A stretch of DNA of 64,000 nt from Daphnia pulex (taxonomy: Eukaryota; Arthropoda; Branchiopoda; Diplostraca; Daphniidae), in the NCBI RefSeq assembly GCF_021134715.1, contig NC_060021.1, positions 124,001 through 188,000 on the forward strand, read 5' to 3'. Both the position numbers and the translations under genes were made by a program. The notes under the pieces are model-generated. The model was not told the DNA's origin and made no database searches. It saw only the letters and a list, made by a program, of their open reading frames with translations. This document shows positions 3,238 through 36,232 of the stretch, piece by piece. The stretch's first letter is position 1, and every line of letters starts with the position of its first letter.

Positions 3238-4339
3238 TTTTGCGCCTCGATGAGCTCGCATCGACTACTGCAATGTCCAACCCAATTTGTTTGGCATTTT
3301 TGTTCCGTTTTTCAATTGACGACACGAGTCAACATTCGTAATCTCCACACAAAGATATCGGCCCTGATATTGATCGAGGGGCAAAGGACAATCCACAAAA
3401 AACCCAAGGTCTTTCACAGTCAAATGTTTCAACGAAAAACAAACGAGAATTAATTTTTAATCAACAATTGAATTCTACCCGCCAAACAAATGAAATTCAT
3501 ACAGCATTGCCAGCAACCCTTTTATTAAAACGGCGTATAATTATTGTGCCTCGCGCCTAGCGTCGCCAGTTTCCCTCCGGGACTTTTGGGGTTTAACTTA
3601 AATGAGGGAGTGTGCATAATACATTTTGGGGGGTTAGGGGTAAGGTTATATATAGGTTAAGTATTTTTTCGCGCAATGTAGGGTCGGTAGGGTGATTGCT
3701 TGGCGCTTATTATAGACATCATTTTGGGGTGTAACTGTAATCCAGGAGCACGCCTAAGTATTTTTTTTTTTCGGTTTACCTTTTGACCAGTTTCACAACT
3801 TGTATCATTTGGATCCCTATCATGTTGGAATTGAAGCCATTTAATGCACCTTTAGAAAGCCGGACTATCTAGGCAACAACTTTTGTTTTCTAATGAAGAG
3901 AGGGCAGAATTTTCTTCAACTCACTTATAGATTAGCGAAGTGTGATTTATGGATCAACTTAGTCGAGTAGCCTAGTGAATTTCTTACTGAAGCATTTTAA
4001 GTCGCATTCTAATTTATGCAACCAACTCCGCGGATTATCCTCCACGAATAACCAATTGCATTCGTCATCATTTATCTAAAATCATTTCTCATGACCAAAA
4101 TGTTAAGCTCTATGTACCGCTTTTCTATTCGAAACTCGGTGTCGTTGGATAGCTGTCACAAGCAGGGGTATGGAGAGAAATCGAACAAAGTTTTTATATA
4201 GCAAACCGCGATTGGTTGTATTAAATTTTAACTCTTAACACGTAGTTCTACAATGCCAGGAATGAGGGAGCAACGCAATGAAGTGAAGCCATGATTTTAA
4301 GACAATAAGACTAGTTTTATCATATGAATGCCCTCATTC
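3238..4339. other. Intergenic region upstream of ACE
   Basis: About 1.1 kb with no coding region I can support. It probably holds the ACE promoter and 5' UTR near 3240-3500. The stretch 3540-3780 is rich in G runs on the plus strand and lacks long open frames. No repeat or RNA gene was recognised. Confidence 0.5.
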
Positions 4340-4868
4340 CAGTTCGCAAAAACGCTGAAATAAGAACAATTTAGAGAAACTGAGTTTGTGTTTCATAACA
4401 GTATTTGACACGTTTAATCGCCTTTCTCCAGCGAGAAGCATTTTCATCATTCTCCAATGGCGGCATCTCTTCTTCGGCTTTGGCTTCCTCACCACCAGCA
4501 GGGACATCATCTTCATCGATACCCAAACCCAATTTCATCATGTGGTAGATGCGAGAAGCATGGACGTCTGGCTCTTCCAGGGAGAAACCAGATGACAGCA
4601 GAGAGGTTTCAAACAGCAACATGACCAAATCCTTGACGGCTTTGTCGTTCTTGTCAGCCTCTGCTTTGACGCGCAGGGCTTCGACGATGGGATGGTCGGA
4701 GTTGATTTCCAAGTGCTTCTTGGCGGCCATATAATCCATGGTGGAGGTATCCCTCAAAGCCTGAGCCTTCACTTCATGATACGCTCCATGTTGGCGGTCC
4801 AGCCGTACTGGGAGGTGACGATACAGCAGGGAGACTTGAAAATGACGACCATCTCGACTTTCTTGTCC
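4340..4868 (-). pseudogene. HSP90 C-terminal fragment (part of a split HSP90 pseudogene)
   Basis: Read on the minus strand, this gives the HSP90 C-terminal dimerisation region: [20 protein letters not shown], then [38 protein letters not shown] and [21 protein letters not shown] 5-nt duplication near 4770 (aag-tg-aag) breaks the frame between MERIMK and AQALRD. The acidic tail is short and the usual MEEVD end is not seen. HSP90 is a cytosolic ATP-dependent chaperone; this copy is not expected to make one. The matching N-terminal part lies at 6880-7734, separated by an IP3-receptor fragment in the same orientation. Confidence 0.85.
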
Positions 4869-4909
4869 GTTTCTTGTGGCAAAAATAAAAGAATTTCAAT
4901 ATGGAACAT

Positions 4910-6880
4910 GGAAAACTTACATGAAACTGAAATACCCGATGATGGAGAACATGAAGACTAGGATGAGAGCCAAAACGGTAGTGAGAACGATGGACCTGCC
5001 GTTTCGCGTCACTGAGCGGATGACGTTGAGCAGCGTCTCCTCGCGGTAGACAACGTCAAATAAAGGACGGAGAAGAAGAAGGGATGGGGGCTGAGTCCGA
5101 GGAAGCAAAAGATGAGGTGAACGACGTGGTAGACAATCTCCGTGTCCGTGCAGATTTGTCTGACGCTCCGCTGGAATGTCCCGGCGTTGGCCATGATGCT
5201 CAGCAGATGGACGCCCTTCAACACTACCGTGGCGGTGCCAAGGAGCATCAGTGTGGGTTGAGGGCCGGCTGAGCAAATAAGCCGGAGGATGACTGTCATG
5301 ACGAGAGTCCTAATAACCGACGGTTTGGGTAACGTGATGGCCACAGCGGCTGATAGGAGCATGACGGCCCAGATGAGACCTGAATTAATAAACGAAAAAG
5401 ATCGTTGAAAAGATGGAAATGGGAGTCACTGTTTAAAGGTGTGCAGACCTGAGAGGTGAGTGCGAGGATCAGGAGCCGGTCCGTCAGTGTCAAACGGGTA
5501 AAAGAAGGCGACAATCAAGTTGATAATTACGGACAAATTGAAGAGGATTTGACTCCAGATGGACATGTGCGAGCTGACCCAAAAGAGAAACGGCTGTCCG
5601 GGCAATTTCTTCTGCCATTTCATCTCGTCAAACATGTCGTCGACTCCTTCGAAGAAGGCGACCACTTTCGATCCCTGGTCGTCGCGCTCCGCCGTGTGGA
5701 AGACGCGCACTTTCGTTTCGTTGGTCAAATACTCGCACATTTCCGGAATGGGGAAGACAATCTGCTCCATCGTCCGGTCGTGACGGACAATTTATTTCGA
5801 TTTGCGCCGTGTGATTGGCGTAGTACTGCAGGGCCGCATCACCGCTGACTCCGTCCACTGGCGGCGGTTTCATCAGGGCGGCCAATTCTTTGTTGTGCTG
5901 CGCCAACTGGTGTCACAAAATGTAAATGTTGTGGCCGACTTCTTTGGGACTAGCCGCCTCTTCTCCACCGACCAAACTTTTCTGATAGGCTTAGCAGGCA
6001 ACGTCCACTAATTGGTGAGGATTCATGTTGTACAGGATCCTTTCCGCGTTCTCGCTGTCGCCACGACTCTCCATGACGGCCAGCAACAACTTGGAGGCGT
6101 TGTTTTTCAACTCCAAAACAAGATCCATTCTCCGTTGTCCTAAATAATTGATCAAATAATTATTAGAATCAAATGGAATGAAAGGAAATTGTTACCTAAT
6201 GGATTGATGTCGGTAAGAAGAAGAGCCGTGATGATGTCCAGTCCATTCGACTCGTGAGTGGCGATGCAGTTTTGGTTTTCGTGACAAGGTCCTTGGCAAT
6301 ATTCCGTCAATGTTTCCAGGGTTTGGTTGATGAGGGTGACGTTGTGCTCATTAATGTAGAGGCCGAGCAGACCCAGTTCGCCCGTCGTCGATCCGCAAAT
6401 GCAGTCGAGGAACATGAGTGTCTCTGACACTAAATTGTAACTGTTTTTGTTGGACTGGGCCCGCAAAAAGTTCTGCAGGTCTCGATTGTGATTCTCACAC
6501 AGCAACTGCAGGAAGCGGAAGACGGGCAGCATTACCAGAACCTTGGCGGACAACTTGGACTCCATGTCCGAATCAGTTGCCGTAGTTAACTTTAAGGGCG
6601 AATTAAATTTATTTTTGTAAGAATTTTAATATAATCACGAATTCAAGTTTTGTTGTACCGATTTGGGTTGTTGTTGTTGTCTCACCAAGTCCTCCAGCGT
6701 CGAGTTGACACTACTCAACGTCGTTGTAGTCGAATCATCCAGCCTGGAGCTGTTCCACGAGTCACTGTAAGGATCCATGCGCTTCCCTACAGTGACGTTA
6801 CCGTTTGAAGCTCTTGTGGACATCATGCGTTGATGTTTCATCTTCATGTCGTACGGGAAATGATCCTTCATTTCATGGAA
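4910..6880 (-). pseudogene. IP3 receptor (ITPR) C-terminal fragment, broken
   Basis: Minus-strand exons match the inositol 1,4,5-trisphosphate receptor, an ER calcium-release channel. Order: a regulatory-domain piece (about 6152-6565, [20 protein letters not shown]), [13 protein letters not shown] and [11 protein letters not shown], then LPGQPFLFWVSSHMSIWSQ with the first membrane segments, a further membrane block (about 5000-5380), and [19 protein letters not shown] with [13 protein letters not shown]. Introns are retained, so this is a DNA-level duplicate and not a retrocopy. It is broken: an in-frame TAA interrupts DVAC/AYQKS near 5993, the frame shifts near 5790 after QIEI, and again near 5070 between FFFSVL and FDVVY. 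The pore helix and C-terminal tail are absent. The functional gene must lie elsewhere. Confidence 0.85.
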
Positions 6881-7734
6881 ATGGACCTGGTCCGATACCA
6901 CTTCGACCTTTGGTTTCTCCTCGTTCTCATCCTTCTTTTCCTCCTCCTCAGCCTCATCGTCGCACTTCCTTGTCGCGCTACTTCTCAACCAATAGCTTGA
7001 TTGGGTAGCAAATGAACTGTGAGTTCTTCTTGACAACCTCCTTGACTTTCTTCTCCTCCAGGTATTCCATCGGATCTTCCTGTCAATAAAGAAAAAAACA
7101 GGCATGAGCATATTGGAAATTATGCCAATGAAGACAAAGAACATACCTACAAGTGGAGGACAATCTTGGTTCCTCTACCCATGGGTTCTCTGTGATTAGG
7201 CTTGATGGTGAAAGAACCACCAGCTGAAGATTCCCAAACATACTGCTCATCATCATTGTGCTAGGAATGAACTGTCACCTTATCGGCAACCAGGTAAGCA
7301 GAGTAGGAACCCACACCAAACTGACCAATCATGGAGATGTCAGCTCCGGCAGAGAGGCCTTCCATGAAAGCTTTAGTTCCAGACTTGGCAATAGTACCCA
7401 AGTTGTTAACCAAATCAGCCTTGATCATGCCGATACCACTAAAGAGAAACAGAACAGTCAAATTCGTGTTCAAATAGGAGGAACTAAATTTCTCAACTTA
7501 CGTATCCATGAGAGTGAGTCATTCTTGTTGGGGACAATCTTGATTTTAAGATCCTTGCCGCTGTCCAACTTGCTTCGGTCAGTCAGGGATTCATAATGGA
7601 TCTTGTCTAGGGCACATCTGAGCAGTTGGAGATCAACTATAGAAGGTGTTGATAATCAAGCTCATAAGCTGAGCAATCTTGGCCTGGAATGTCAAAGTCT
7701 CAGCTTCATCTCCCATTTGAACTTCTCCAGGCAT
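6880..7734 (-). pseudogene. HSP90 N-terminal and linker fragment (broken, introns retained)
   Basis: Starting at an ATG at 7734 just after an AG acceptor, the minus strand reads [20 protein letters not shown] and [13 protein letters not shown], the start of the HSP90 ATPase domain. About ten residues usually following (NKEIFLRELI in the family) are deleted. After an intron (7441-7503) come [40 protein letters not shown] and, past a lesion, [19 protein letters not shown] second intron (about 7083-7146) precedes [11 protein letters not shown] and the charged linker. Stops and frame breaks are scattered through it. Beyond the linker the reading runs into sequence that is not HSP90. The 5' UTR intron acceptor is kept. 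The same deletion is found in both arms of the giant transposon. Confidence 0.85.
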
Positions 7735-8071
7735 CTAAAAAGGGAAAGGAAAATATTTCAGTAAGAAATGTTTGTCAATTGTGGTAGATTGCACTCACAA
7801 ATTGAAATTCTACATACTATCTATGGACTTGAGGCATACCAAAAAATTTGTAAATAACCAATTTGTTTGTCTAAACCAGTAGTAAAACTGGTAAAACTTA
7901 CTTTGCTTTTAAACGTAAACAACAAACAAACCCGACGCTTTTCTGTTCACGTTGGGTGGGGATCTACATGTATACAAGGCCGCCGGGCAGTCGTAAAAAC
8001 TGCCACCAAATTCGCTTCTTGTTAGGCCTGCAAACTATAGCTTTTGGGTTGACACACATCAAGCCGGGAAA

Positions 8072-8495
8072 GTGAGCCCGTTCGACTTTGAATCGCTGTG
8101 TAAAAAATACAGCTATTAGTATATCTTCATGTGATCCATTTTGAAGCCCTTTCTTTGTTTAATCTCTTTCATACAAAAATTTTCGTGATAAGTAACACAT
8201 TTACGTAAATTTTGTATTAATGTTTAGTGTCGTTTTGAATTTGCAGTTTGAATTGCAGCGGTGGCGTTTCGAAACTGAGCCCCGTTTGACTTAGAATCGC
8301 TGTTTTAAAAAATGAATATATTATATCTTCGTAAAATGTGATCCATTTTAAAGAGATTTCTTTGTTCAATCTAATGCCTACAAAAATTTGCGTGATTGGT
8401 GTCACAATTACGTAAATTTAAGTGTCTAATTACTGCAATTGAATTTTGCAGTTTGAATTGCAGCGGTGGCGTGTCGAAACTGAGCCTCCTTCGAC
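8072..8495. repeat. Two tandem ~205-bp repeats upstream of the HSP90 pseudogene
   Basis: Two diverged direct copies begin near 8072 and 8277; a partial third start is seen near 8482 (each opens GAGCC...TCGACT/TTGACT...GAATC). Each unit contains GTGATCCATTTT, AATTACGTAAATT and ends TTGAATTGCAGCGGTGGCG. Part of the unit (GTGATCCATTTTAAAGAG to GCAATTGAATTTT) also occurs in the transposon arms at 22195-22310 and 31990-32105. No coding potential is seen. Confidence 0.75.
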
Positions 8496-18818: not shown

Positions 18819-18824
18819 TGTTTA
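18819..18824. repeat. Target-site duplication TGTTTA, left
   Basis: Six bases directly before the left end of the giant element, repeated exactly at 35457-35462 directly after its right end. Confidence 0.8.
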
Positions 18825-18859
18825 TATGGAAGCCCAAAACCGCCACTGTTTTAATATAA

Positions 18860-19215
18860 TAATGTTTTTCAAAATATCATTATGTAAAACAGAAAAGAAT
18901 ATATAAAAAACAAATTCAATATAAAACTGAAAAAAGTGTTATATAAAAACCAAAAAGAGTGTAATATAAAAAAAAAAGTTGATATAAAAAGCAAAAAAAG
19001 TCAATATAAAACCCAAAAAAAAGTCAATATATATAAAAAAATATTCAATATATATATAAAAAAAATTCAATATAAAAACTGAAAATGTATTATATTAAAA
19101 GCAAAAAGAGTATAATATAAAAAACAAAAAGTTGATATAAAAAGCAAAAAAAAATCAATATAAAACCCCCCAAAAGTTCAATATATAATCCCAAAAAAGT
19201 TCAATATAAAAATGG
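18860..19215. repeat. Subterminal AT-rich motif array, left
   Basis: Many irregular copies of a motif like TCAATATAAAA(A), spaced about 15-30 bp, on the plus strand. The mirror array is at 35085-35430. Such subterminal repeats often bind transposase in other DNA transposons; that role is inferred here. Confidence 0.7.
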
Positions 19216-21463
19216 CAGCCACCTAGCGGTCAAAATAATTACTTCATGCCACATCTCCACCCCCTTTATAGCCAGTTTGAATGCAGCTTCTTCCGCGATA
19301 CGCGCTCAATTTGAGCGTATTATTTAATCCTATATTTAAAAAAGCGCAAGAAAGCGTAAGAAAAAAATGATGATTGCTACCCCGGATGGAATCGAGTGAC
19401 TATAGCCCACCCCAAACGACGACAGCATCAAACACCATTTCAATTCCTAATTTGTCGATTTCTTTTCATTCCCCCCTCACTTTTTTCCTCTCTCTCCTCT
19501 CATTTCGTGTTATTTTTATTTCTGGGTTCTTCTCGTATGCCTTCGAATTGATGGCTGAAGAACTTGCGCGTCATAATAAGATGAGCTCGACAATAGGGCA
19601 ACAACTGCTGCGCACGCTGTGACGGTGCGGAGAGATCAGATGGCAATCAGTTGATGTGTACGGGTCAAACATCTACTTTGACGTCCACTTCTTACGTGTG
19701 TTTATGTTTATATTCCCCATCGTGATGGAGACAAGAGTCTTTCGGAGAATGTTATCTATTCCCCCCCCCCTCTCTCATCTGTGATAGCGCCGCTCGTTTT
19801 TAATTAAAAAGAGAGAGACGATACCTTCATCATCACCGTAGCAAAAACATCCAAAACTGCGCTGTGTCTATCGATCGGATATAGGTATGGATCGCCCAAG
19901 ATATAATAGCGTTATAGGGGTATTTTACTTGATGGTTATGTCATATCGTATAGAGAGACGATTATTTCATCAACATGAAAATAAAGTTGGTGTTTTTTAA
20001 ATATTCATGGACGAAATTGAAAAAGAAAAATGAACGACTCGTAATATAACCGCGGTTATATAATGATCCTTAATCTTTTGACGATCATCATCATCTTCCC
20101 CCTAAAGTATTCATTTGTATATTTCGTGAGAGTGGATAAACAAAAGAAAACGACGCTGTTCTCTTTGTTGGTTGTTTTTTCAAATATTTATTTTGATCCC
20201 TCAATAGCAGATGAGATGGATGTCGTCATCCAGCAGCAACAGTCGGAAGTCGGAACAACCAATATAAGCGATTAAATTTGTCATATAGCCAATCTCTGTT
20301 TGATTTAATATGGCAGAGTGACTCTTGAGTCACAAAACATCAATGCATTTTCAATGAAATTCAGTCGGATGTCGGAGCTTACCGAGTTTGCCTATATATC
20401 TACGACTTCCAGTAGAATGCTTGACTTGTCTATATCTCTTCTTTTGTGATTCGGCGGCTTGTTTCTTATATATATATGTGAAATGTATATATTGTTCTTC
20501 CCCTCGTTCACCCTCAAGGGTCGATTTGATAAATTTTATTCCTCGGCGATCTATTTCTCTCTCTCGAAAAAACCACCGAATTTCCCTGTGTGATGTTTTG
20601 ACGAAATCAGCCGCCGAATCTTGTCGTGATGCCGGCTACCGTACATATCATATCATATAATAACACCCCTTGAAGTTATACTACATCTGTGTTATATTTA
20701 AGGCTCTTTTTTTTACTATTCTGTTTCTACCCCGCCTGCCATATACAAATTGTTTCATGCCAGCGCCTCAAAGGGTCTCGTCTATATCATATACGAAGGG
20801 AGGGTATACTTCATAGACCCAACAAATAAAAGTTGAAGAGGGTCGAAATCATAACCATGGAAAGAATAAGCTTAACATTTCTTATTCTCTGATGGCCATA
20901 GATTTTAGAGTAAGAAAATTGGAACGCCCGACTTTCGCTGTGGGGGTTGAAGGGAGATTCCATAAAACAAGGTCGAGGGGGTTATTATATTTATTATTGG
21001 ACGTGTATAGCGATAGGCATCGCGCAGTTGTACTCTGCTGGGCAGAGATCAGTTCGATGATGGCAATAATATAGCAGACAATTGAAAACCTTGTGTAGTA
21101 CAACAGCGCGGTTTATTATTATATGTCTAGGCCTATTGAAAGAGATGCTGTCGGCTATTATGTACACAGACAAATGGAGAGAATTGCGCAGGAGGATGGA
21201 GGAGAATAAGAGATCAAGGAGAAAATAAAGGCCTGGTTCGACTGTGGGTTCGACTGAAGGGGGAAAAATGGAACTACCAGGTGCTGTGCTCTTGTGAGAC
21301 AAGCTGTGTGGCCAGGGCTGCTGCTGCTGCTGGTGCTGGAGGGTTTTCTCATTTTCCCTTTTTGCTTGGTCATTGATGACACAGTGAGCTGCACTGTGCT
21401 GTGTGTGTGCTGGATTCTCTTTTTCAATCTCTTCTTCTTCTTTCTTTTTTTCTTTCTTTTCCG

Positions 21464-21908
21464 TAAGCAGAGTAGAAACCCACACCAAACTGACCAATCA
21501 TGGAGATGTCAGCTCCGGCAGAGAGGGCTTCCATGAAAGCTTTAGTTCCAGACTTGGCAATAGTACCCAAGTTTTTAACCAAATCAGCCTTGATCATGCC
21601 GATACCACTAAAGAAAAACAGAACAGTCAAATTTGTGTTCAAATAGGAGGAACTAAATTTCTCAACTTACATTTACATGAGAGTGAGACTACAGTCATCC
21701 TTGTTGGGGACAATCTTGATTTTAAGATCCTTACCGCTGTCCAACTTGCTTGGGTCAGTCAGGGATTCATAACGGATCTTGTCTAGGGCATTTGAGGAGT
21801 TGGAGATAAACTATAGAAGGTGTTGATAATCAAGCTCATAAGCTGAGCAATCTTGGCCTGGAATGTGAAAGTCTCAGTTTCGTCTTACATTTTAACTTCT
21901 CCAGGCAT
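21464..21908 (-). pseudogene. HSP90 5' fragment in the left arm
   Basis: From an ATG at 21908 the minus strand reads MPGEVKM, then a TAA, then [19 protein letters not shown] with INTFYS. It continues after the same ~ten-residue deletion as the copy at 7 kb, with an intron and then [20 protein letters not shown] and [13 protein letters not shown]. There it ends abruptly at a breakpoint near 21463. The 5' UTR intron and upstream sequence are also carried (to about 22315). The copy is broken by stops and deletions and cannot encode HSP90. Confidence 0.88.
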
Positions 21909-22779
21909 CTAAAAAGGAAAAGGAAAATATTTCAGTAAGAAATTTTTGTCAATTGCGGTAGATCACACTCAAAAATTGAAATTCTACATTTCTATGAACT
22001 TGAGGCATACCAAAAAATGTGTAAAATAACCAATTTGTTTGTCTAAACCATTATTATAACTTACTTTGCTTTTAAACGTAAACAAACAAACCGGACGCTT
22101 TACTGTTCACGTTGGGTGGGGATCTACATGTATACAAGGCCGTCGGGCACTCGTAAAAACGGCCACCAAATTCGCTTCTTGTTAGGCCTGCAAATGTGAT
22201 CCATTTTAAAGAGATTTATTTTTTAAATCTAATGCCTACAAAATTTTTGCGTGATTGGTGTCACAATTACGTAAATTTAAATGTCTAATTACTGCAATTG
22301 AATTTTTTACTAGAAGGGAAACAGTTCTTTTCAGGCCAGTGGCGCTAGTAGTATGCTTCCGATAAGCATAGCGCGCCACCGCTGCACAAACGCTTTAAAG
22401 CCAAATTCTGTTTCTCACATGTTCAGTCGCGTGGTCGCAGAGCACCAGAGAGGAGGTGCTGAATTTTTTTTTTTAAATTTCTTTTTCGTGTTTTTAGCTT
22501 TGGATACCAAATGGATTATTGTGAGCTCAAATGTGTTTTTTTTTTTTTATTGTGAAGTCGGATTTGGCTGAATTGTATGGGCTAGCTGGGGTAGTGCCCA
22601 TTTTTGAAATTTCTTTGTTTGTGTTTTTGCCCTGGATACCAAATGGATTATTGTGTGCTCTACTGTATTTTTTTTATTGTTAAGTCGGATTTTGCTGAAT
22701 GGTATGGGCACCGGCACCCAGATGCTGGGGTAGTGCCCATTTTTTAAATTTCTTTTCCGTTGAGACCTACCCCTTTTGT

Positions 22780-23260
22780 CAACTACAAATCATTGAGAAC
22801 ATTGCTGTTGTGTAGAGACTGCGAATAACCTTTGCGAACTGAAATTGGACTAATACTTTTAACAATTAGTACTGCGGACAAGATTTACAATTACAAAATA
22901 ACTGTTTGAAATTTTCTGTTGTATTTTGAAAGTTCATTAGGGACATTTTAATCTAATGTAAATAGAACTTCAACTTTTTACTATTAACATAGTACTGCGA
23001 ACAACTATTGCAGTTAGGTTAGGACTGCGAAAAACCTTTTTCAATTACTGCAACACTTTACGATTCCATTTCTACTGTGACTAACCTTTTACAATTGGTA
23101 TAGGATTTGGATACTTTTTACAATTCAATTTACACCACGTGCAACCTTTTACAATTAGATGGACTGAGAACAACTTTTAGCATTGCAAATAGGACTGCGA
23201 ACAACTTTTACCATTACAGCTTGTATTTTTCCCTTCTATTTTTTTGTTCATTAGGATATC
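22780..23260. repeat. Degenerate short tandem repeats in the left arm
   Basis: Repeated variants of ACTGCGAACAACTTTTACAATT with spacing of roughly 30-60 bp. The mirror is 31040-31520. No gene is seen. Confidence 0.6.
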
Positions 23261-23295
23261 CCGCCTTCAGTAAATCCATTTGACACTTCATTGCA

Positions 23296-23514
23296 ATGTC
23301 AACACACGCGAATCAACACCTTGCGCAGCCAGACAAGCCCGTCCGACCCGGTAGCGGCCGTCGAGCACCCCGCACTTCTTCCCTTTGCACCGCCACGTAT
23401 TTGGAGAAGCAGCAGCCTGCGTTCAAGATCGAGCCCGAGGAAAACAACAACGACCCTGTCAAAGTGATTATGGATGTTATTCCCAGCACTCCTGCGGTCC
23501 TGTCCGAAGTTTAA
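23296..23514 (+). CDS. Hypothetical 72-aa frame crossing the inner arm border
   Basis: The ATG lies inside the arm and the rest in the unique loop. The sequence MSTHANQHLAQPDKPVRPGS continues through Pro- and Arg-rich stretches to KVIMDVIPSTPAVLSEV. It is more GC-rich than its surroundings, which suggests a former coding exon. I do not recognise it. It could be a captured host exon or the 5' end of a lost gene. Confidence 0.3.
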   Translation: MSTHANQHLAQPDKPVRPGSGRRAPRTSSLCTATYLEKQQPAFKIEPEENNNDPVKVIMDVIPSTPAVLSEV

Positions 23515-23902
23515 AAAGTCCCTCTCGACTCGCCTGAATTTACTTACTGCCTCCCGCCCCACTTCCCTTTTGTTTTTCATTTAACTTGTCTCGTTTTTGA
23601 GAAATTTCGATCTTTTATTAAGTTTACAAGTCTTTCACGAAACAAACTTGCTTATCGCTTTTGGTTATGCTTTTCTTCTTACCAGAGATAACACTAGCAA
23701 ATTTATGGATATACCAGGGAGCTTTTTGGTAATTGTTCTAGTCTTCTACTAAAATCAATCCAGGGTGTATATGTGCGATGAAATTGTCTCTGCAGTGCCT
23801 TTCATACTTGTGAGTTGTTCTCATGGAATGGAATACAAAATACTCTGAGGAAATTTATTGTCTTTGCGCAGCAAGGGATCTGCATTTTATTTATCTGACT
23901 GT

Positions 23903-25472
23903 TTAGTAGTACATATTTATGTGACGACGCAAATGCCGCCTCATTTCGATGTAGCGGTCTCTAGCTACTGCAATCCTTGTTGATCCAGTTGCATAAATTT
24001 CTTGAAACTCATTATGATCCTCGTTGTTCAATACAATCCTGATGGGTGGAATTACTATTTGATTTCTTCTGTTTTCTCTTGGCAGGTGAATGTCTTCTAA
24101 CCGTGGAATTTCAATATCCTTTACATTCAAAACAGACGGTTAGGTATTCCTTGTCGTTACATTAGGCAACGAATTTTTAAACATTTACTTGTCTGAGTTC
24201 AGTAAATTCCCTTCCCTCGTTTGTTGCACGTTCTTGGAGTGCTATAGTTCCATCGATGAACATTTGTGTAGGTGTAGGACGGCCACGAAGGCGGTGAGCA
24301 TTCCAGTAACCAACAAATTCTTTTAAGTGTTCAGATATGACATTGTAGTACACAGTATGCAAGCAGTACATGTCATGCTCATCGTCGGCGTCTAGTAATC
24401 CCTCTTCTTCCATATCTCTGTACAAACAAGGCAAACATAATTTCAGGAATTAGTAGTAACTTAATTGTTATTACTTACGCAAATTCCCGTTCGAAAATTG
24501 ACACACATCCCATTCTGACATCGCGCCACATCCTTTCTACTCTTTGATTATGAACAGAGGAACCAGTCATGCAACTTCCTCTGTTAAGTCCCCGAGCTCG
24601 AAGCATAAATTCTCCTACTCCAACGTTTTCTCCTCCACGATCAGTCCTATTAATAAGATATGTAATTTGATTATTTTCCGTACTTTTCGTTACGTTTTAA
24701 TATGTTTTCATACCTGATTCTAGATGGCAACCCATATTCTTCAACTCCTGATAAAAATCCTTCTAGCACAGTTTTCGCTCTGTTATTTGAAGATACACGC
24801 ATAAAAAAAATTAAACGGGAGTATCCATCAATGCCTCCGTGAATGACGAAGCGCCACCTGGTGTGTCATTATTCGTAATGACTTATTAAATGCCCTAAGT
24901 TATCTTTAAGAATGGTTTAAGGTCTTACTTTCTGGAAATCTTATGGTTTCCATCAATGTGAACAATGGAGAGTGGTGCCCTTACACGATACACTCTCCTT
25001 GCAACTCTCCTTCTTTGGTTCCGAGGTCCAAATATTTCTGCAATAGTTTGGATTACAGTGGCTCTTCTCACTTGATGGCCCATTAATCGCAGCCTCACTG
25101 TTACTTGACGATATCCGATGTTGTTATTTTCACTAATAAGTCGGTGGATAATATTTTGGAGGTTCCGATAAGGGATTCTGCTGTATCTTCTTCTAACAGC
25201 TATTCCCATTCTTGACATCATCCTTTGCAATGTTCGGAGAGGAATACCCAGTCGTTCAGAAATTTGCCTGACATAGTATTGGTGATCTGTGTAAACAAAT
25301 AGACGATATATTGTGTTTTAAAAAGTGCTGTTTCCATATTGTAAATAAAACGACTAAACATATTGTACTTAGTAACTGCGAAATTCTTTCCCGTAAGTCT
25401 CCGTCGCCATTCACTACGAAAAAAATTTTAATAAATGTTTTTTTATTTCTATTTGTGAATATTTGACTTACT
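23903..25472 (-). CDS. DDE integrase-core transposase (IS3EU-like)
   Basis: Seven exons join in frame to 386 aa: 25472 (one base), 25413-25369, 25286-24929, 24857-24714, 24646-24479, 24417-24189, 24118-23903. The ATG is made by splicing, A at 25472 to TG at 25413. An N-terminal helix-turn-helix region ([37 protein letters not shown]) is followed by the rve-like core. First Asp in [15 protein letters not shown], then [14 protein letters not shown], second Asp in [15 protein letters not shown], and Glu in [17 protein letters not shown]. So all three catalytic acids are present. The tail ends [16 protein letters not shown]. This family of integrase-core proteins occurs in many animals. It lies in the loop of the giant inverted repeat and is the likely mobilising enzyme. 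No stop or frame break is seen. Confidence 0.82.
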
Positions 25473-25978
25473 TTTATATTTCTGAAGCTGTCACTTTGCA
25501 ACACGAATGATAGCTACAACATTTTGCTTCTCTGTTCTGACAGATAAATACCACAGATGCCAGCACTCTTCTTTCCCTTCCTCCTATTTTACCGATTATG
25601 TAATGCTTGTGCTGTCCTCTTCTAAAAAAATTGCGCTTTGTTCTCTACATTCTGCTTCCTGCAAACCGCTCGCACAGCCGCGTTAAACTGATTATTACCA
25701 TTTGCTGTAACCCACATAGCACACGTCGGAATTGAAGAGATCTGCCCGTCATCATAAACTTTGGCTAATGTAAATAAAATATCAAGGTCTGAAAATTGGT
25801 CATCTGGAATTAATCATAGCTAAAGTTATATATCTCCCTACATTAACAGATATTTAGAAATTATGTTTGATTTCCACATGTTTATTGACCAAGAGAAAAC
25901 CGGAGAAAACTCAAGTCAAGTGCGATGAATTTTTTAATAGCACATATACTCTGGCTGGTTGTTAACGTAAGCTACTCC
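25473..25978. other. Loop spacer between integrase and CCDC25 fragment
   Basis: Probably the integrase 5' UTR and promoter (25473-25700), then AT-rich sequence. No further gene or RNA was recognised. Confidence 0.4.
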
Positions 25979-26705
25979 CTACATGAAGTCATCAGGATCG
26001 TTTCCATCATCATCTTTGTTGGTCTTCAGGTTTGTTTGCTTCAGCAAACGGTCGTAGCTCCTAAACATGTAAAATTTAACATTTCTGTGTAAAAAAAATA
26101 TAACATCAAGGTCACCTTAGTTCAGCTTTATCCTTTATCGGTTTTCTTCTTCTCTCCCTTTTTTTCGTTCTTTACGGAGTCTTATCTTGTCGTCTCTTCA
26201 CAGTCTCTCTGTTGTCTTTCAAACATTATTAAGGTTTTTTCTCAACTTTGGTTATGTTGAGACGGTTTACAATTTCATTAATTATCTTCTCCACCCTAAT
26301 CTTGCGAACCTATAAAACATGGCTGTTAGCAAAGTGGAAAGGAACATATTAAGAAAGAAATTGTACATCTTTTTCTTTGAAAAATGCAACTTGTCCAACT
26401 TCCATACCAGGAGTATTTATCTAATTAGACCACAGGGTGAAAACAACATCGAAGTTGTTCATTTTATTCCTTTAGATGCTGTTTGCTTTAAATAACTGTG
26501 CTTCACCTTTCAAAGTTGCTGCTGGAATATCATCAATTACTTGGCCCTAGAAATCAGAATAGCAACAAAGCTGTATTTAAAATTGTGTTATTTGATTCAA
26601 TTAAAAACTTTACCTTGTTTATTTGTATGTACATATGGGCTGACGCTAGCTTGTCAACATGGAACCAAACATCTTCAGGCCATCCCCACTTTATCAACTC
26701 CTCAT
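25979..26705 (-). pseudogene. CCDC25 fragment, broken
   Basis: Minus-strand exons match coiled-coil domain-containing protein 25, reported as a membrane sensor of extracellular-trap DNA in vertebrates. Visible parts in order: [20 protein letters not shown] with [81 protein letters not shown]; and the end SYDRLLKQTNLKTNKDDDGN with DPDDFM. It is broken by stops after KANSI, after TLWSN and after KVEKKP, and the first exon (MVFYFTS in the family) is missing. Introns are retained, so it was captured or duplicated as DNA. Confidence 0.88.
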
Positions 26706-26821
26706 CTAGTTGTTATGAAAAGAAGAATATTCACCTATATGTATCAGAGGAAGAAGAGAGTCAGAAAAGCCTATACGAAAAGGAACTAAAAATCAATCTC
26801 CATGTACCACAATTTTTCATG

Positions 26822-28300
26822 TTATTTAAAATAACGGTTCAAATAAAAAGGGGTCACATTCAATGTCGCTAAAACGACCATTGAACGCGGAGCAGTGAAA
26901 TCAAGTGTATCCTTCACAATGGCTTCCAATTTCTGGGGATCGACTCCCATTTGAGCTCCCGTCACTCCCATTCCCGCAAAGAAATTGTTGATAGCTTCTG
27001 CTGGAAAGCCACGTCGACGGAGAGCAGTCAATGTGAATAAAAGAGGATCGTCCCAATCTACCGTGAAAAAAAGGAGATAACAACGCTTTATTAATTTCCT
27101 TAATCACAATGAATTCGTATTACCGTGAACAATGTTCTTGGTGAGAAGTGTAGCAATTTCTCGCTTGGACACCACAGTGTAGTACACATTCAAGCGACCA
27201 TACTCCCACTGGACTGGGCAGTAAATGTCCAGAGCATTACAAAGCCAGTAAAAAGCCGTCTAAAGCGGTCAAATTAAATAGATGGATGATAAAATTAGAA
27301 AAATAATTTTCTTAGGTAAATTACCTCGACTGAAACTCTTTTTTGCGCCTTTTTCGATACAATCACAGAGGCGATACAGATCAGTGAGTGTAATCGTAAG
27401 TAGGATAGATACACCATTGGTCTCCAGTACGGTGATGGGCAACATATTCGATTCGGTATGCCACCGGATCGAGTTTACCCTCTTCCAACGTCAATTTCAT
27501 TCTCATAGTAGCTGCACCTTCCCCAAACATGCCATTTTTCATATGCTAAAGGTGATGAATATCATTTAAAGGTTTCGTTTATAATCGCCAATCAATTTTT
27601 TTCTCTACTTCAAATAACTGAAGACTCTCTTCAATTGGGCGATCTCTCCAAGGAGAAGGAATTGGGTTGAATTCCTTCATTTCCCCAGCTTTTAGGTGAA
27701 AAACATGCGAGTCCTCTTTTAATGAGCAATTTGGCCCATTCGTAAAGCTGATGGAAATTGTCTGACGAGTGAGTAATTTGGTACGACTTGTATCCTAATC
27801 GATGCAGTATAGTTAATTCAAACCTTTAATTATGTGACACAAATGTAATTTATTACCTAGTCACTCCACCATATCTTTGATGCCAACAAAAAATTTCTCC
27901 TCCTCCTTTTCAGGATTGGTATAATTGTAACGTAGGAAGCACACTCCATCATTAGCAGCAGCGTAACCGAAATTGATGTTGATGGCTTTGGCATGCCCAA
28001 TATGGAGGATACCGTTAGGTTCAGGTGGGAATGTGGTTCTTACCCACAAACAAACAATAACAATATACTACATCTGCAAAATAGCTTAGAATAATTGAAT
28101 TACCTGGCCGCCAGTTTCTTTTAAATGTTGTTTCAGTAAATCCATAGTCTTGTCGTGGATGACATAGCCATCAGTTTTGAAATTTTCACCAGGCTTATGA
28201 AACTGAACCTTTTTCATCAGCTCAGTGATTGTACTTTCACTGTCTGAATACTGTTCTATGGGGAGAACAAATCGAAGTGTTAAATTTGGAACTGACACTA
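26822..28300 (-). pseudogene. Glutaminyl-tRNA synthetase (QARS) fragment, broken
   Basis: The minus strand shows QARS blocks in order: FHKPGENFKTDGYVIHDKTM with [32 protein letters not shown], including the HIGH signature of class I synthetases; SDNFHQLYEWAKLLIKRGLA; IPSPWRDRPIEESLQLFE in another frame; [20 protein letters not shown] and [38 protein letters not shown] with TVVSKREI; and [24 protein letters not shown] charges tRNA-Gln. The copy is broken by a frameshift after RGLAC and others, lacks the C-terminal anticodon-binding half and the N-terminus, and keeps its introns. It shares its strand with the CCDC25 fragment. Confidence 0.9.
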
Positions 28301-28667
28301 GCCATTTTCAATATTTTGGTTCTTTGTTTTTTCCCGTTCCTCTTGTTTTGAAAAGACGAACATGACTGCTGTCATGTACTCACCAAGCCACCGAAAGAAA
28401 ATAGTCAAATTAATCTAGAGATGGCAAAGAATAACGTTATGAGTATAGCTCAAAAATTAAATTAGCTATTTAAAAAAAAATAATAATGAGTAAGGTTACG
28501 TTCGTTTCAGTCTCGTTGTCGTAATTTATCCATTATTGCTATTCAAAATGACCACAATTAAACCATGATGCACCGCTGTATTTTTAGTATTACTTATACC
28601 CCTTAGACAATACTTCTCATTCTGTTTCATCAGTTTTCCGATAACTCACGATCCCACTTTCAAGAAA
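28301..28667. other. Spacer upstream of the RING gene
   Basis: AT-rich, no frame supported. It probably holds the RING-gene promoter. Confidence 0.4.
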
Positions 28668-30884
28668 ATGTCGGATAGAGCTCAAGAGGAGTTTAACACC
28701 TTAATTACTTGCCTGGTGTGCACAAACACTTTTAACGAGACTGAAAATTCGCCTCGTACTCTTCCATGTGGACACATATTTTGCCTGAATTGTCTTGAGG
28801 TAAAATGGAATTCATTAAAAAAGTTATTTTCTGTTGCAATCGAAATGTATGCTTGTGCTTGCAAAGGAGAATTCTAAAACACCTTTTTTTTTCAAATGTG
28901 CTATCACATTAATTTATATTACGAATATATTTTGTTAGTGGAAGAAATCGGTATAATAGGCGATATAGATGTTTTTCCAATCAAAAAGTAGTAGTCTAAT
29001 CTTTTATTCGACTACATTTTAGTTGGAATAACATCTATAATGCAATAATGAATACTGACCCCTAAATTGTGTAGATCGAATAAAAAATAATAAGTACCCA
29101 ATGTTCAATATTCCTTTAAAATTCGTTGAAAAATTTCCACTACTTGGATTTTTATTTATAGATAATTCTTCATTTTATTCCATTTCTGCGTAGAAATTAA
29201 GATGCAAGTAGTAGAAATATTTTAACATGTTTTAAGTAATATTCTACATTAATGAGGGTTCGGTATTTATATGTCGTTAATAATTTTTCGCCTTTTATTA
29301 GAGAATTTGTATTATAAATCATCTGGGGGGGAAGGAATTGACTTGCCCACTTTGCAAAAAGGATCATTCAATTACTTCTTCTATAAGAGAATCTACGTTG
29401 GAATCGTCTCAGACGTTGTACCTTGTGAAATTCCCAAGGGTGGTGGCACCCGCTGCTACAGACAGTAGTTATTTTTTCATTTATTTTATAACTCAAAATA
29501 ACAATACATTACATTTACAGCAGCAGTAAGACCATCAAATCTTAACATTGAGCAACCTATCCTGCGTCCCCCCCCCGTGGAGGATATAACCCCGCTACTC
29601 AATTACCCCACCCGTGGCCAATGTATGTTAATGGACGCTGAGCCTGGAGACCAAGCAATGCCATCTGTAGGGAGGGCCCGCGGTCATCTCGGTACAATAA
29701 GTGATTCGTCGAGGCTATCTCTACGTAGAACACGCGGACGAGGGGAACCATTTGCGGAACCTACGCCAAGTAACAAACAAATTCAACAATAACGGCACGG
29801 TCAATAAAATGAATTTTTTTTTTAGGATATTCTCCGTATTCTCGAGTGAATTTGTCGAGAAGGATGAATTCCCCACCATCGGCCAGAAAATCGAAGGCAC
29901 CTTCTTCAAGCCCGTCTCCACGTGCGGGATCACCAAATCCGGGACCGTTTAGACGATCCCTGTCACCTAGGCCAGGCCCATCTACCCGATCGACGTCCCC
30001 AAGACCAGGACCCTCTAGAAGATCGTGGTCGCCACCAAAAAAAAATTATGGGGGGGCGGAGAAATACTCTACTGTGAAGGAGGAACTACGTGGGAAAATG
30101 ACGAAGAAATCTGATAAGACAACTATTTCAAGTAATCAAATTTAACTAAAGTTTTCGCAATGCATACAGGGGAAATGTGGAAATTCTAATTCGTGCAAAA
30201 ATGTTTTTCATAGAGAAAAACGATAAGGAAACCAAGGATTTCTTCCTGTGCAACATCCGACACGATTTCTCTACCGACGAACCCTATTATGCCCCAGAAT
30301 TTTTTTATTGGGATACTCTGGAAGAAAACGGCCTCGGTTGGCGAAAAAATGTCGTTGTCAATTACTTAGACAACAAAGAAAGCGTACATGAAAAGCTGGT
30401 ACAGCTGTACCCACGTCTCCGTGAGTGCCAACAAAAATATTACATCTGTGTAACAAGGGGGGGACGAAGCCAAGAGTTAAGAATGGTTAATGTGGGCCCA
30501 GCTTCTGGAACAACTATTACTGTAATATTTTACACCCAATTTTTTTGCCTTTCAGCTGTTAATATCTATTTTCTTATGCTAGCAATTACCAAAAACCCTG
30601 TACCTCGTCCCCATGGTAAGGGATATCAGCGTGGAAGGCGTCGCGGAAGAAGTCCGCGAAGAAGATCTGAAATGTGAATACTGCAGGAACAACTTCACAA
30701 TGGCGGAGTGGGATGATCACTTGGAGGGGATATGTCGGCGAGATGGTCGGCAACAAAGCAATTACTTTTCTACTAACAAAAAAGAATTAAAAAACTTAAT
30801 TTTCGTTCTTCAGGTAGCAATAGAGAATCACAAAACAGGAATATAGACGAAGAATTTGAGGATTTGTGGGATGAAGAATACTAA
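28668..30884 (+). CDS. RING and C2HC zinc-finger protein of the transposon
   Basis: Probable exons: 28668-28799, 29302-29464, 29521-29769, 29826-30131, 30170-30521, 30593-30745, 30814-30884. The first two give a RING finger: CLVCTNTFNETENSPRTLPC, GHIFCLNCLE, then ELTCPLCKKDH, i.e. C3HC4 spacing. The third and fourth are basic and repetitive with an SPRPGPS(T/R)RS motif. The fifth encodes a globular part (FFLCNIRHDFSTDEPYYAPE). The sixth has CEYCRNNFTMAEWDDHLEGI C, a C2HC finger like ubiquitin-binding zinc fingers. The seventh ends FEDLWDEEY. The join from the fourth to the fifth exon does not keep frame with the obvious splice sites, and runs of A and G nearby could hide a one-base error. The RING suggests an E3 ubiquitin ligase. 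It faces away from the integrase. Confidence 0.62.
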
Positions 30885-32391
30885 AACATTTCTATAATGA
30901 AATAAAATAAACAGGCAGATAAATAAAATTGTGAATGCAAAAATTAGTCATTTCCTTATTAAAGAAGTGATCAAAAAATACTTAATAAAAAACTTTGTTG
31001 ACATTGCAATGAAGTGTCAAATGGATTTACTGAAGGCGGGATATCCTAATGAACAAAAAAATAGAAGGGAAAAATACAAGCTGTAATGGTAAAAGTTGTT
31101 CGCAGTCCTATTTGCAATGCTAAAAGTTGTTCTCAGTCCATCTAATTGTAAAAGGTTGCACGTGGTGTAAATTGAATTGTAAAAAGTATCCAAATCCTAT
31201 ACCAATTGTAAAAGGTTAGTCACAGTAGAAATGGAATCGTAAAGTGTTGCAGTAATTGAAAAAGGTTTTTCGCAGTCCTAACCTAACTGCAATAGTTGTT
31301 CGCAGTACTATGTTAATAGTAAAAAGTTGAAGTTCTATTTACATTAGATTAAAATGTCCCTAATGAACTTTCAAAATACAACAGAAAATTTCAAACAGTT
31401 ATTTTGTAATTGTAAATCTTGTCCGCAGTACTAATTGTTAAAAGTATTAGTCCAATTTCAGTTCGCAAAGGTTATTCGCAGTCTCTACACAACAGCAATG
31501 TTCTCAATGATTTGTAGTTGACAAAAGGGGTAGGTCTCAACGGAAAAGAAATTTAAAAAATGGGCACTACCCCAGCATCTGGGTGCCGGTGCCCATACCA
31601 TTCAGCAAAATCCGACTTAACAATAAAAAAAATACAGTAGAGCACACAATAATCCATTTGGTATCCAGGGCAAAAACACAAACAAAGAAATTTCAAAAAT
31701 GGGCACTACCCCAGCTAGCCCATACAATTCAGCCAAATCCGACTTCACAATAAAAAAAAAAAAACACATTTGAGCTCACAATAATCCATTTGGTATCCAA
31801 AGCTAAAAACACGAAAAAGAAATTTAAAAAAAAAAATTCAGCACCTCCTCTCTGGTGCTCTGCGACCACGCGACTGAACATGTGAGAAACAGAATTTGGC
31901 TTTAAAGCGTTTGTGCAGCGGTGGCGCGCTATGCTTATCGGAAGCATACTACTAGCGCCACTGGCCTGAAAAGAACTGTTTCCCTTCTAGTAAAAAATTC
32001 AATTGCAGTAATTAGACATTTAAATTTACGTAATTGTGACACCAATCACGCAAAAATTTTGTAGGCATTAGATTTAAAAAATAAATCTCTTTAAAATGGA
32101 TCACATTTGCAGGCCTAACAAGAAGCGAATTTGGTGGCCGTTTTTACGAGTGCCCGACGGCCTTGTATACATGTAGATCCCCACCCAACGTGAACAGTAA
32201 AGCGTCCGGTTTGTTTGTTTACGTTTAAAAGCAAAGTAAGTTATAATAATGGTTTAGACAAACAAATTGGTTATTTTACACATTTTTTGGTATGCCTCAA
32301 GTTCATAGAAATGTAGAATTTCAATTTTTGAGTGTGATCTACCGCAATTGACAAAAATTTCTTACTGAAATATTTTCCTTTTCCTTTTTAG

Positions 32392-32836
32392 ATGCCTGGA
32401 GAAGTTAAAATGTAAGACGAAACTGAGACTTTCACATTCCAGGCCAAGATTGCTCAGCTTATGAGCTTGATTATCAACACCTTCTATAGTTTATCTCCAA
32501 CTCCTCAAATGCCCTAGACAAGATCCGTTATGAATCCCTGACTGACCCAAGCAAGTTGGACAGCGGTAAGGATCTTAAAATCAAGATTGTCCCCAACAAG
32601 GATGACTGTAGTCTCACTCTCATGTAAATGTAAGTTGAGAAATTTAGTTCCTCCTATTTGAACACAAATTTGACTGTTCTGTTTTTCTTTAGTGGTATCG
32701 GCATGATCAAGGCTGATTTGGTTAAAAACTTGGGTACTATTGCCAAGTCTGGAACTAAAGCTTTCATGGAAGCCCTCTCTGCCGGAGCTGACATCTCCAT
32801 GATTGGTCAGTTTGGTGTGGGTTTCTACTCTGCTTA
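32392..32836 (+). pseudogene. HSP90 5' fragment in the right arm
   Basis: Mirror of 21464-21908, with the same stop after MPGEVKM, the same deletion after INTFYS, the retained intron, and the same breakpoint after FGVGFYSAY. Its identity to the left copy is part of the arm identity and is not independent evidence of capture. Confidence 0.88.
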
Positions 32837-35084
32837 CGGAAAAGAAAGAAAAAAAGAAAGAAGAAGAAGAGATTGAAAAAGAGAATCCAGCACACACACA
32901 GCACAGTGCAGCTCACTGTGTCATCAATGACCAAGCAAAAAGGGAAAATGAGAAAACCCTCCAGCACCAGCAGCAGCAGCAGCCCTGGCCACACAGCTTG
33001 TCTCACAAGAGCACAGCACCTGGTAGTTCCATTTTTCCCCCTTCAGTCGAACCCACAGTCGAACCAGGCCTTTATTTTCTCCTTGATCTCTTATTCTCCT
33101 CCATCCTCCTGCGCAATTCTCTCCATTTGTCTGTGTACATAATAGCCGACAGCATCTCTTTCAATAGGCCTAGACATATAATAATAAACCGCGCTGTTGT
33201 ACTACACAAGGTTTTCAATTGTCTGCTATATTATTGCCATCATCGAACTGATCTCTGCCCAGCAGAGTACAACTGCGCGATGCCTATCGCTATACACGTC
33301 CAATAATAAATATAATAACCCCCTCGACCTTGTTTTATGGAATCTCCCTTCAACCCCCACAGCGAAAGTCGGGCGTTCCAATTTTCTTACTCTAAAATCT
33401 ATGGCCATCAGAGAATAAGAAATGTTAAGCTTATTCTTTCCATGGTTATGATTTCGACCCTCTTCAACTTTTATTTGTTGGGTCTATGAAGTATACCCTC
33501 CCTTCGTATATGATATAGACGAGACCCTTTGAGGCGCTGGCATGAAACAATTTGTATATGGCAGGCGGGGTAGAAACAGAATAGTAAAAAAAAGAGCCTT
33601 AAATATAACACAGATGTAGTATAACTTCAAGGGGTGTTATTATATGATATGATATGTACGGTAGCCGGCATCACGACAAGATTCGGCGGCTGATTTCGTC
33701 AAAACATCACACAGGGAAATTCGGTGGTTTTTTCGAGAGAGAGAAATAGATCGCCGAGGAATAAAATTTATCAAATCGACCCTTGAGGGTGAACGAGGGG
33801 AAGAACAATATATACATTTCACATATATATATAAGAAACAAGCCGCCGAATCACAAAAGAAGAGATATAGACAAGTCAAGCATTCTACTGGAAGTCGTAG
33901 ATATATAGGCAAACTCGGTAAGCTCCGACATCCGACTGAATTTCATTGAAAATGCATTGATGTTTTGTGACTCAAGAGTCACTCTGCCATATTAAATCAA
34001 ACAGAGATTGGCTATATGACAAATTTAATCGCTTATATTGGTTGTTCCGACTTCCGACTGTTGCTGCTGGATGACGACATCCATCTCATCTGCTATTGAG
34101 GGATCAAAATAAATATTTGAAAAAACAACCAACAAAGAGAACAGCGTCGTTTTCTTTTGTTTATCCACTCTCACGAAATATACAAATGAATACTTTAGGG
34201 GGAAGATGATGATGATCGTCAAAAGATTAAGGATCATTATATAACCGCGGTTATATTACGAGTCGTTCATTTTTCTTTTTCAATTTCGTCCATGAATATT
34301 TAAAAAACACCAACTTTATTTTCATGTTGATGAAATAATCGTCTCTCTATACGATATGACATAACCATCAAGTAAAATACCCCTATAACGCTATTATATC
34401 TTGGGCGATCCATACCTATATCCGATCGATAGACACAGCGCAGTTTTGGATGTTTTTGCTACGGTGATGATGAAGGTATCGTCTCTCTCTTTTTAATTAA
34501 AAACGAGCGGCGCTATCACAGATGAGAGAGGGGGGGGGGAATAGATAACATTCTCCGAAAGACTCTTGTCTCCATCACGATGGGGAATATAAACATAAAC
34601 ACACGTAAGAAGTGGACGTCAAAGTAGATGTTTGACCCGTACACATCAACTGATTGCCATCTGATCTCTCCGCACCGTCACAGCGTGCGCAGCAGTTGTT
34701 GCCCTATTGTCGAGCTCATCTTATTATGACGCGCAAGTTCTTCAGCCATCAATTCGAAGGCATACGAGAAGAACCCAGAAATAAAAATAACACGAAATGA
34801 GAGGAGAGAGAGGAAAAAAGTGAGGGGGGAATGAAAAGAAATCGACAAATTAGGAATTGAAATGGTGTTTGATGCTGTCGTCGTTTGGGGTGGGCTATAG
34901 TCACTCGATTCCATCCGGGGTAGCAATCATCATTTTTTTCTTACGCTTTCTTGCGCTTTTTTAAATATAGGATTAAATAATACGCTCAAATTGAGCGCGT
35001 ATCGCGGAAGAAGCTGCATTCAAACTGGCTATAAAGGGGGTGGAGATGTGGCATGAAGTAATTATTTTGACCGCTAGGTGGCTG

Positions 35085-35430
35085 CCATTTTTATATTGAA
35101 CTTTTTTGGGATTATATATTGAACTTTTGGGGGGTTTTATATTGATTTTTTTTTGCTTTTTATATCAACTTTTTGTTTTTTATATTATACTCTTTTTGCT
35201 TTTAATATAATACATTTTCAGTTTTTATATTGAATTTTTTTTATATATATATTGAATATTTTTTTATATATATTGACTTTTTTTTGGGTTTTATATTGAC
35301 TTTTTTTGCTTTTTATATCAACTTTTTTTTTTATATTACACTCTTTTTGGTTTTTATGTAACACTTTTTTCAGTTTATTTATTCTTTTCTGTTTTATATA
35401 ATGATATTTTGAAAATCATTATTATATGGA
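35085..35430. repeat. Subterminal AT-rich motif array, right
   Basis: Mirror of 18860-19215: repeated TTTTATATTGA-type motifs. The outer part differs slightly from the left array. Confidence 0.7.
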
Positions 35431-35456
35431 AAAAGTGGCGGTTTTGGGCTTCCATA

Positions 35457-35462
35457 TGTTTA
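35457..35462. repeat. Target-site duplication TGTTTA, right
   Basis: Direct repeat of 18819-18824. Confidence 0.8.
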
Positions 35463-35490: not shown

Positions 35491-36232
35491 CACAGACTAA
35501 GAATAGAAAGACCACGATCGTCCCTATAGGGCTGAGAGGAACCGTCTTGGATCATGCTCGTGGCTCCCGCTGCGGCGCTGCGATCGATTTAGAGGAGACT
35601 TTTCGGTGAATTTTCCTTTATCCCTACTGATTAGAGTCTTCACACACCTTAATTTTAAAAATTGACTTTTTGTGCTAAGTTTTTACTTTTTACTTTGTTA
35701 TTTTGTTCGTGATTTCTTGATTATGTAATAAAAATTTCAAATAGATTGGTTTATTTATTTGTGCCTTAAAAAATTGGTTTTTTAGACACCCTTTCTCGCT
35801 TATTTTGTGACGAATAATAATGAATCGTGAAACGCTGGATTCTTGTGTCGTTTGGAATTCAGGATAATTTAGGCGCCAAATGAATAGTCTATTAGTCCAG
35901 CGTTTCACGATTCATTATTATTCGTCACAAAATAAGCGAGAAAGGGTGTCTAAAAAACCAATTTTTTAAGGCACAAATAAATAAACCAATCTATTTGAAA
36001 TTTTTATTACATAATCAAGAAATCACGAACAAAATAACAAAGTAAAAAGTAAAAACTTAGCACAAAAAGTCAATTTTTAAAATTAAGGTGTGTGAAGACT
36101 CTAATCAGTAGGGATAAAGGAAAATTCACCGAAAAGTCTCCTCTAAATCGATCGCAGCGCCGCAGCGGGAGCCACGAGCATGATCCTCATTGGCTGTATA
36201 GGAGAAAGTCGTCTTTCTATTCTTAGTCTGTG
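35491..36232. mobile_element. Foldback (MITE-like) element, 7-bp target duplication
   Basis: A 742-bp inverted repeat with arms of about 350 bp (35491-35839 and 35896-36232) around a 56-bp loop. The ends are CACAGACTAAGAATAG and its complement; GTTTCAC flanks both ends (35484-35490, 36233-36239). Near the outer ends the arms differ by substitutions and about 12 nt, while the inner ~290 bp look the same. No coding capacity. It sits 34 bp from the giant element. The family is not assigned. Confidence 0.82.

Follow-up and report, generated by a model that had tools for sequence, protein, structure and literature searches.

The 64,000-bp stretch of Daphnia pulex DNA analysed here (the window; C5:124001-188000) carries at positions 18825-35456 an element of 16,632 bp, which we read, with a probability of about 0.8, as a large inserted DNA transposon of the IS3EU type, which has kept its arms alike by copying and has captured fragments of host genes through repair. 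The element is of a known kind (IS3EU); what is new is the length of its arms, which exceeds the figure given for Galileo (1.2 kb) more than threefold, the evidence for copying between them, and the presence of host-gene cargo beside an open transposase frame. The genome searches covered one assembled haplotype of 13 contigs (133,188,837 bases).

Boundaries and inverted arms

The element starts with TATGGAAGCC at 18825, ends with GGCTTCCATA at 35456 and is flanked directly, on both sides, by the hexamer TGTTTA (18819-18824 and 35457-35462). A preliminary description of this DNA had reported inverted arms of about 4.4 kb and matching termini with an exact TGTTTA outside them, and both were borne out. 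A blastn self-comparison aligned 18824-23304 with 35457-30996 over 4,481 columns at 99.44% identity (6 mismatches, 3 gaps), which places the left arm at 18825-23304 and the right arm, its reverse complement according to blastn as well as MAFFT, at 30996-35456. Since two random 6-mers from the window agree with a frequency of only 0.000375, and since the duplication begins precisely where the matching termini stop, it is unlikely that the TGTTTA pair arose by chance.

Close to its outer end each arm contains a subterminal array of 22-23-bp units, as detected by Tandem Repeats Finder. In the left arm the array consists of about 12-13 copies of an A-rich unit, the copies being 65-72% alike (18885-19212); its counterpart in the right arm lies at 35088-35376. 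The arms of Galileo have several transposase-binding sites inside them (PMC3688188), and by analogy these units are candidate binding sites for the transposase of the element.

Three other explanations of the structure were rejected, namely an inverted repeat arising by chance, an artefact of one sequencing read doubling back (the flanks differ, and another copy with its own duplication is found elsewhere), and an endogenous virus, no viral family being present among the Pfam matches of the chosen pieces, to which that comparison was confined.

Other copies in the genome

The first 101 bp of the element gave 28 matches in the genome, two of which are its own ends. Reading 22 of the 28 terminal matches yielded seven two-ended copies, i.e. 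pairs of facing termini, and three of the seven have an exact 6-bp duplication. The preliminary description had proposed a search for copies with other duplications, and two such copies came to light besides the one in the window: a copy of 13,253 bp (E2; C10:7756414-7769666), duplication TACGTT, with arms of 4.84 kb that are 99.26% identical, and a short copy of 2,344 bp (C8:13291082-13293425), duplication AGTTGA. The ends TATGG..CCATA were found on both sides of the window copy, of these two copies and of C11:4759812. The arms of the short copies measure only about 0.3-1 kb and are 82-94% identical. An older copy, from C8:20128 onward, is 72-97% identical in the aligned pieces and contains RING-finger and transposase sequence in the same order as the window copy. 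In this older copy (C8:19100-31384) the transposase stretch resumes about 8.7 kb further on, at C8:39162-39459, as would be the case if an insertion had interrupted it.

Short two-ended copies of 2.3-3.2 kb, and the other repeats inside the arms, are also what one would expect if two smaller elements faced each other and were moved, together with the unrelated DNA between them, as a unit by their outer ends. Such a composite origin is very improbable, however: the termini occur only twice in the whole window (with at most 5 mismatches in 20), both times at the outer ends, and the transposase gene is located in the loop and not in each arm.

Transposase and family assignment

The transposase gene lies on the minus strand and comprises five exons (25286-24929, 24857-24714, 24646-24479, 24417-24189 and 24118-23903), which when joined encode 370 amino acids without a stop and match the Pfam family rva_4, an integrase core, at E=5.3e-68. 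The catalytic residues D111, D169 and E204 are all present at a spacing of D-57-D-34-E (DD34E), and in an alignment of 19 proteins D169 and E204 are invariant, while D111 is found in at least 90%. The core gave no HHCC-type match and only a weak one to HTH_23 (E=0.029, below the cut-off), the N-terminal exon lying outside the protein examined.

In a large protein database 2,386 proteins among 4,876 candidates matched at E<=0.001, the four best of which are from Daphnia; a comparison of the transposase profile with solved structures yielded no chain at E<=0.01. In a tree that combines the window protein with 18 others, which were picked from 120 listed of the 2,386 matches and include no named IS3EU protein, it groups with six other Daphnia proteins (support 99/97). 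When a 117-amino-acid piece of the transposase was searched against the genome, 34 matches were returned, the two best of which are in the window (97% and 96%); the others range from 37 to 72%, with the exception of a match of 25 residues at 88% in the decayed C8 copy. Neither E2 nor an incomplete copy on C6 contains a transposase. The window copy has the sole open transposase frame among the family copies read and may therefore drive the others in trans.

IS3EU elements usually have 6-bp duplications and TA..TA termini (PMC10045372), and those described from rust fungi end in TAYGG..CCRTA (PMC12730594). The duplications TGTTTA, TACGTT and AGTTGA and the ends TATGG..CCATA fit these published descriptions, and the element is therefore filed as IS3EU, an assignment that is supported by ends and duplications. 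The ends, the 6-bp duplications and the integrase-type DDE core are features shared with the IS3EU/GingerRoot transposons. IS3EU and GingerRoot form one lineage, GingerRoot elements also having 6-bp duplications and mostly TA..TA ends (PMC10045372), and named reference proteins were absent from our comparison, so that the element might belong to another integrase-type group (GingerRoot, IS481EU) and not to IS3EU proper. We consider this unlikely, as ends of the form TAYGG..CCRTA agree with the description of IS3EU (PMC12730594), the duplications of IS481EU are about 4, 15 or 25 bp long (PMC10045372), and IS3EU has been reported from D. pulex, where it accounts for 0.05% of a published assembly, as compared to 0.00 in D. 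magna (table in PMC8594854).

The preliminary description had arrived at the same family from the 6-bp duplications and TAY...RTA ends, and had proposed a very large member carrying extra genes. Both proposals are supported, with the refinement that some of the extra genes are captured host-gene fragments. Its "intact DDE integrase-like gene" stands as far as the core is concerned (25286-23903, minus strand, no stop, triad D111/D169/E204); intactness beyond the core does not, for an N-terminal exon was looked for and not identified.

Probable copying between the arms

The two arms of a copy resemble each other more closely than they resemble the arms of another copy. In the window copy the MAFFT alignment of left and right arm contains 7 substitutions, one 19-bp gap and a ragged inner edge at arm position 4480. 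All seven substitutions and the gap fall at arm positions 24-118, and the next 4,362 bp inward (119-4480) are identical up to the ragged edge; under uniform scatter, the probability of finding 7 out of 7 substitutions in the outer zone would be about 9e-12. Within the inner stretch shared with E2 (about 1.3 kb), left and right arms differ at 0 of 1320 positions in the window copy and at 3 of 1321 in E2, whereas 28-29 differences per 1303-1323 positions separate the two copies. This stretch has 30 variable sites, of which 27 distinguish the copies from each other and 3 are private; no site sets left arms apart from right arms. The arms of E2 have four of their eight substitutions in the outer 533 bp, the interior differences being located at positions 2915, 4535, 4723 and 4738.

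The arms of the two copies also differ in content. Arm positions 463-2638, a segment of about 2.2 kb present in both arms of the window copy (19287-21462 in the left arm; 32838-35013 in the right, as converted from the left-arm coordinates with the 19-bp offset), are replaced in E2 by about 3 kb that include part of an HSP90 gene (E2 arm segment 440-3493). About 2.1 kb of the window segment is a repeat that also occurs at three other places on C5. Each version of the arm content is found in both arms of its own copy. Given this closer match within copies, and given that the two arms of the window copy are identical from position 119 inward although they include a 2.2-kb segment that is absent from the arms of E2, the simplest account would be that the arms have been kept alike by copying from one to the other. 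Gene conversion between the inverted repeats is one possible route, repair of the gap left by excision another.

Alternatively, each copy could have acquired its long arms independently and not long ago, when one of its ends was duplicated in inverted orientation (a foldback event), without any copying since. This would agree with the near-identity of the arms and with the modest arms of the short copies, which imply that not every member of the family is long-armed, but it does not explain why the outer 118 bp have diverged and the rest is identical, a pattern that a single duplication does not yield. Moreover, the outer 0.46 kb and inner 1.3-1.8 kb common to both long copies are more easily derived from one long-armed ancestor. 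We consider separate foldback events unlikely.

Various observations weigh against a transposon with arms maintained by copying. When the joined flanks were searched in the same genome for an empty site, only the two flanks of the element itself and two incomplete matches (35 and 41 bp) were recovered, a result that is little informative in one haplotype. Two of the two-ended copies lack an exact 6-bp duplication, namely C11:4759812-4762181 and C8:7056820-7060057 (the latter with a point change in both ends); a 3-kb copy adjoining E2 has a damaged left end, and the flanks of C8:3101885-3113583 are themselves inverted repeats, which makes its duplication unreadable; in two of the seven copies the duplication could not be assessed. 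Only two complete copies have arms longer than 4 kb, the third (on C6) being incomplete, and the C6 copy differs from E2 at only 10-11 of 1320-1322 positions (from the window copy at 24 sites). The contrast is less marked in the outer 0.45 kb, with 7/451 (window copy) and 3/447 (E2) differences within copies and 13-22/437-459 between them; of the 17 variable sites in this part 8 separate the copies, 9 are private and none separates left from right arms. The autonomy of the element is unproven, since the N-terminal exon is missing from the gene model. Finally, the comparison was made on assembled sequence, and short-read polishing could produce falsely identical arms, the outer zone of 118 bp being close to a read length.

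This last point may be taken further: the transposon would be real, while its true arms differ more and one consensus has been written into both. That the arms of the window copy differ solely in the 118 bp next to the unique flank, about one short-read length, is as expected from such an effect; that they do not differ next to the equally unique loop, and that E2 shows its four interior differences, is not, and for these two reasons a polishing artefact is less likely. The two copies, in addition, keep different arm contents, each in both arms. On balance we judge the artefact improbable and prefer the copying of arms.

Host-gene fragments and the RING-finger gene

The loop contains a fragment of QARS (glutaminyl-tRNA synthetase) on the minus strand (26852-28318), which has kept its introns and is 92% identical at the DNA level to C10:1804809-1806284, the sole other match of such length in the genome. 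The exon/intron spacing of the two is the same, and the fragment encodes parts with PF00749 and PF04557. It looks as if the fragment was captured as genomic DNA. Most of it is missing from E2 and from the C6 copy, which retain about 220-230 bp; from these remnants it follows that the capture probably predates the parting of the copies. The part of the older C8 copy that was read gave no QARS match.

Both arms contain a fragment from the N-terminal side of HSP90. In the left arm it lies on the minus strand (21463-22306, the extent being taken from the DNA match to a second HSP90-like stretch of the window) and matches solved HSP90 chains with a best E of 2.8e-44; the same stretch is found in the right arm on the plus strand (31994-32837, converted with the 19-bp offset). 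No Pfam match was obtained for the HSP90 pieces of the window copy's arms. The HSP90 pieces of E2 match solved chains at E 1.4e-60 and PF00183 at E 2.3e-80. The HSP90 stretch of the arms recurs over 630-770 bp, at 81-94% identity, in no fewer than 16 further loci, including one in the window, and over 310-395 bp in no fewer than 10 more, for example at C10:58542, C9:6906765 and C2:12663050-12673497; of these loci, the one in the window was checked for its identity as HSP90.

The RING-finger gene (28668-30881, plus strand) has exons at 28668-28799, 29302-29464, 29521-29769, 29826-30131 and 30170-30485, with further coding stretches near 30583-30762 and 30804-30881. Exons 1 and 2 together encode a C3HC4 RING. 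The joint between exons 4 and 5 is out of phase, and we therefore do not claim that the gene is intact. None of 4,562 candidate relatives of the protein in the large protein database reached E<=0.001. RING sequence adjoins transposase sequence in the older C8 copy too. The gene may be a passenger of long standing or a host gene that was captured. Comparison with that copy gave ratios of nonsynonymous to synonymous substitution of 0.71 (exons 1-2), 0.89 (exon 3) and 0.31 (exon 5, first 120 bases). These values are little informative, since stop codons interrupt the C8 copy and one of its zinc ligands has been lost. Several relatives of the gene with 73-74% DNA identity lie at C12:3437287-3469328 and C12:3688580, although none of the matches listed by the transposase search is on C12.

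Proposed mechanism

In the proposed mechanism, the transposase would bind to the last 20-25 bp at each end, which are conserved, and probably also to the subterminal repeats of 22 bp, cut the element out and join it to a target staggered by 6 bp (cut-and-paste). The transposase of the window copy may also mobilise the copies that have none. Arms would be copied by conversion between the inverted repeats or, after excision, by repair of the gap with the other arm as template, and such repair may also have brought in parts of the host genes QARS and HSP90 in the form of genomic DNA, introns included in the case of QARS.

It is conceivable, although we consider it a long shot, that arm copying is the way of life of this family: rounds of excision and repair would rewrite one arm from the other, so that a host fragment, or another repeat, that has entered one arm would soon be in both. 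The result would be a self-made inverted-repeat gene with a transcript that could fold into double-stranded RNA of great length, directed at host genes such as HSP90 or at the element.

Comparison with known systems

Foldback and Galileo are the usual examples of DNA transposons with very long arms. To our knowledge, what causes such arms, and how they stay alike, is not settled. The window element resembles these Drosophila elements in that its inverted arms are very long and contain tandem repeats. Galileo, however, has a P-type THAP transposase, 7-bp duplications and shorter arms, of up to 1.2 kb (PMC2775673), whereas the window element has an rva_4 core and 6-bp duplications. It is built like a foldback element but is not one by descent, and it adds another superfamily with arms that are even longer.

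In the TET-carrying IS3EU elements of fungi the transposase gene and a second gene are oppositely oriented and face each other, and an acquired gene lies in between (PMC12730594). Similarly, the RING-finger gene and the transposase gene of the window element are divergent and the captured QARS fragment lies between them. Unlike the fungal elements, the window element contains host-gene fragments and has a RING-finger gene instead of an alpha-kinase; the arms of the two long copies of its family, moreover, measure 4.4-4.8 kb, as against terminal inverted repeats of ">30 bp", for which the passages concerned state no upper figure (PMC12730594). No arms of kilobases are reported in the passages of IS3EU papers with which the element was compared.

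Host-gene sequence between transposon ends is also known from the Pack-TYPE and Pack-MULE elements of plants (PMC8903248, PMC6431247). The window element likewise encloses such sequence (QARS with introns, and HSP90 in the arms). Pack-TYPE elements are non-autonomous by description, whereas the window copy, the largest of the family, has an open transposase frame and HSP90 sequence in both arms; E2, unlike the window copy, is without an open transposase frame. Teratorn, a piggyBac-herpesvirus element of fish, differs in its size (41-182 kb), its piggyBac-like transposase and its herpesvirus genes.

The window element is an IS3EU element of an animal in which host-gene cargo and an open transposase frame occur together, and it may show how such transposons grow and stay symmetrical. 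Two copies are available that differ in arm content and yet have matched arms within each, and mutation-accumulation lines of D. pulex exist (PMC2884549); conversion between arms should therefore be measurable.

Further features of the window

HSP90-like fragments that are 91-94% identical to the arm of E2 are also found outside the element, at 3583-4691, 6901-8034 and 8334-8447. Between them, at 6152-6622, lies a match to the inositol trisphosphate receptor (E 1.8e-65). Judged by these matches, the pieces at 3583-8447 appear to be another mosaic of host-gene parts in the same window.

A dispersed repeat with 10 further long copies (91-94%) adjoins the border of left arm and loop (23310-23865); its left edge is the edge of the query, and the repeat may begin further left. 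About 90 bp beyond the right end of the element there is a near-perfect palindrome of about 640 bp (35549-36186), which is 94.9% self-complementary.

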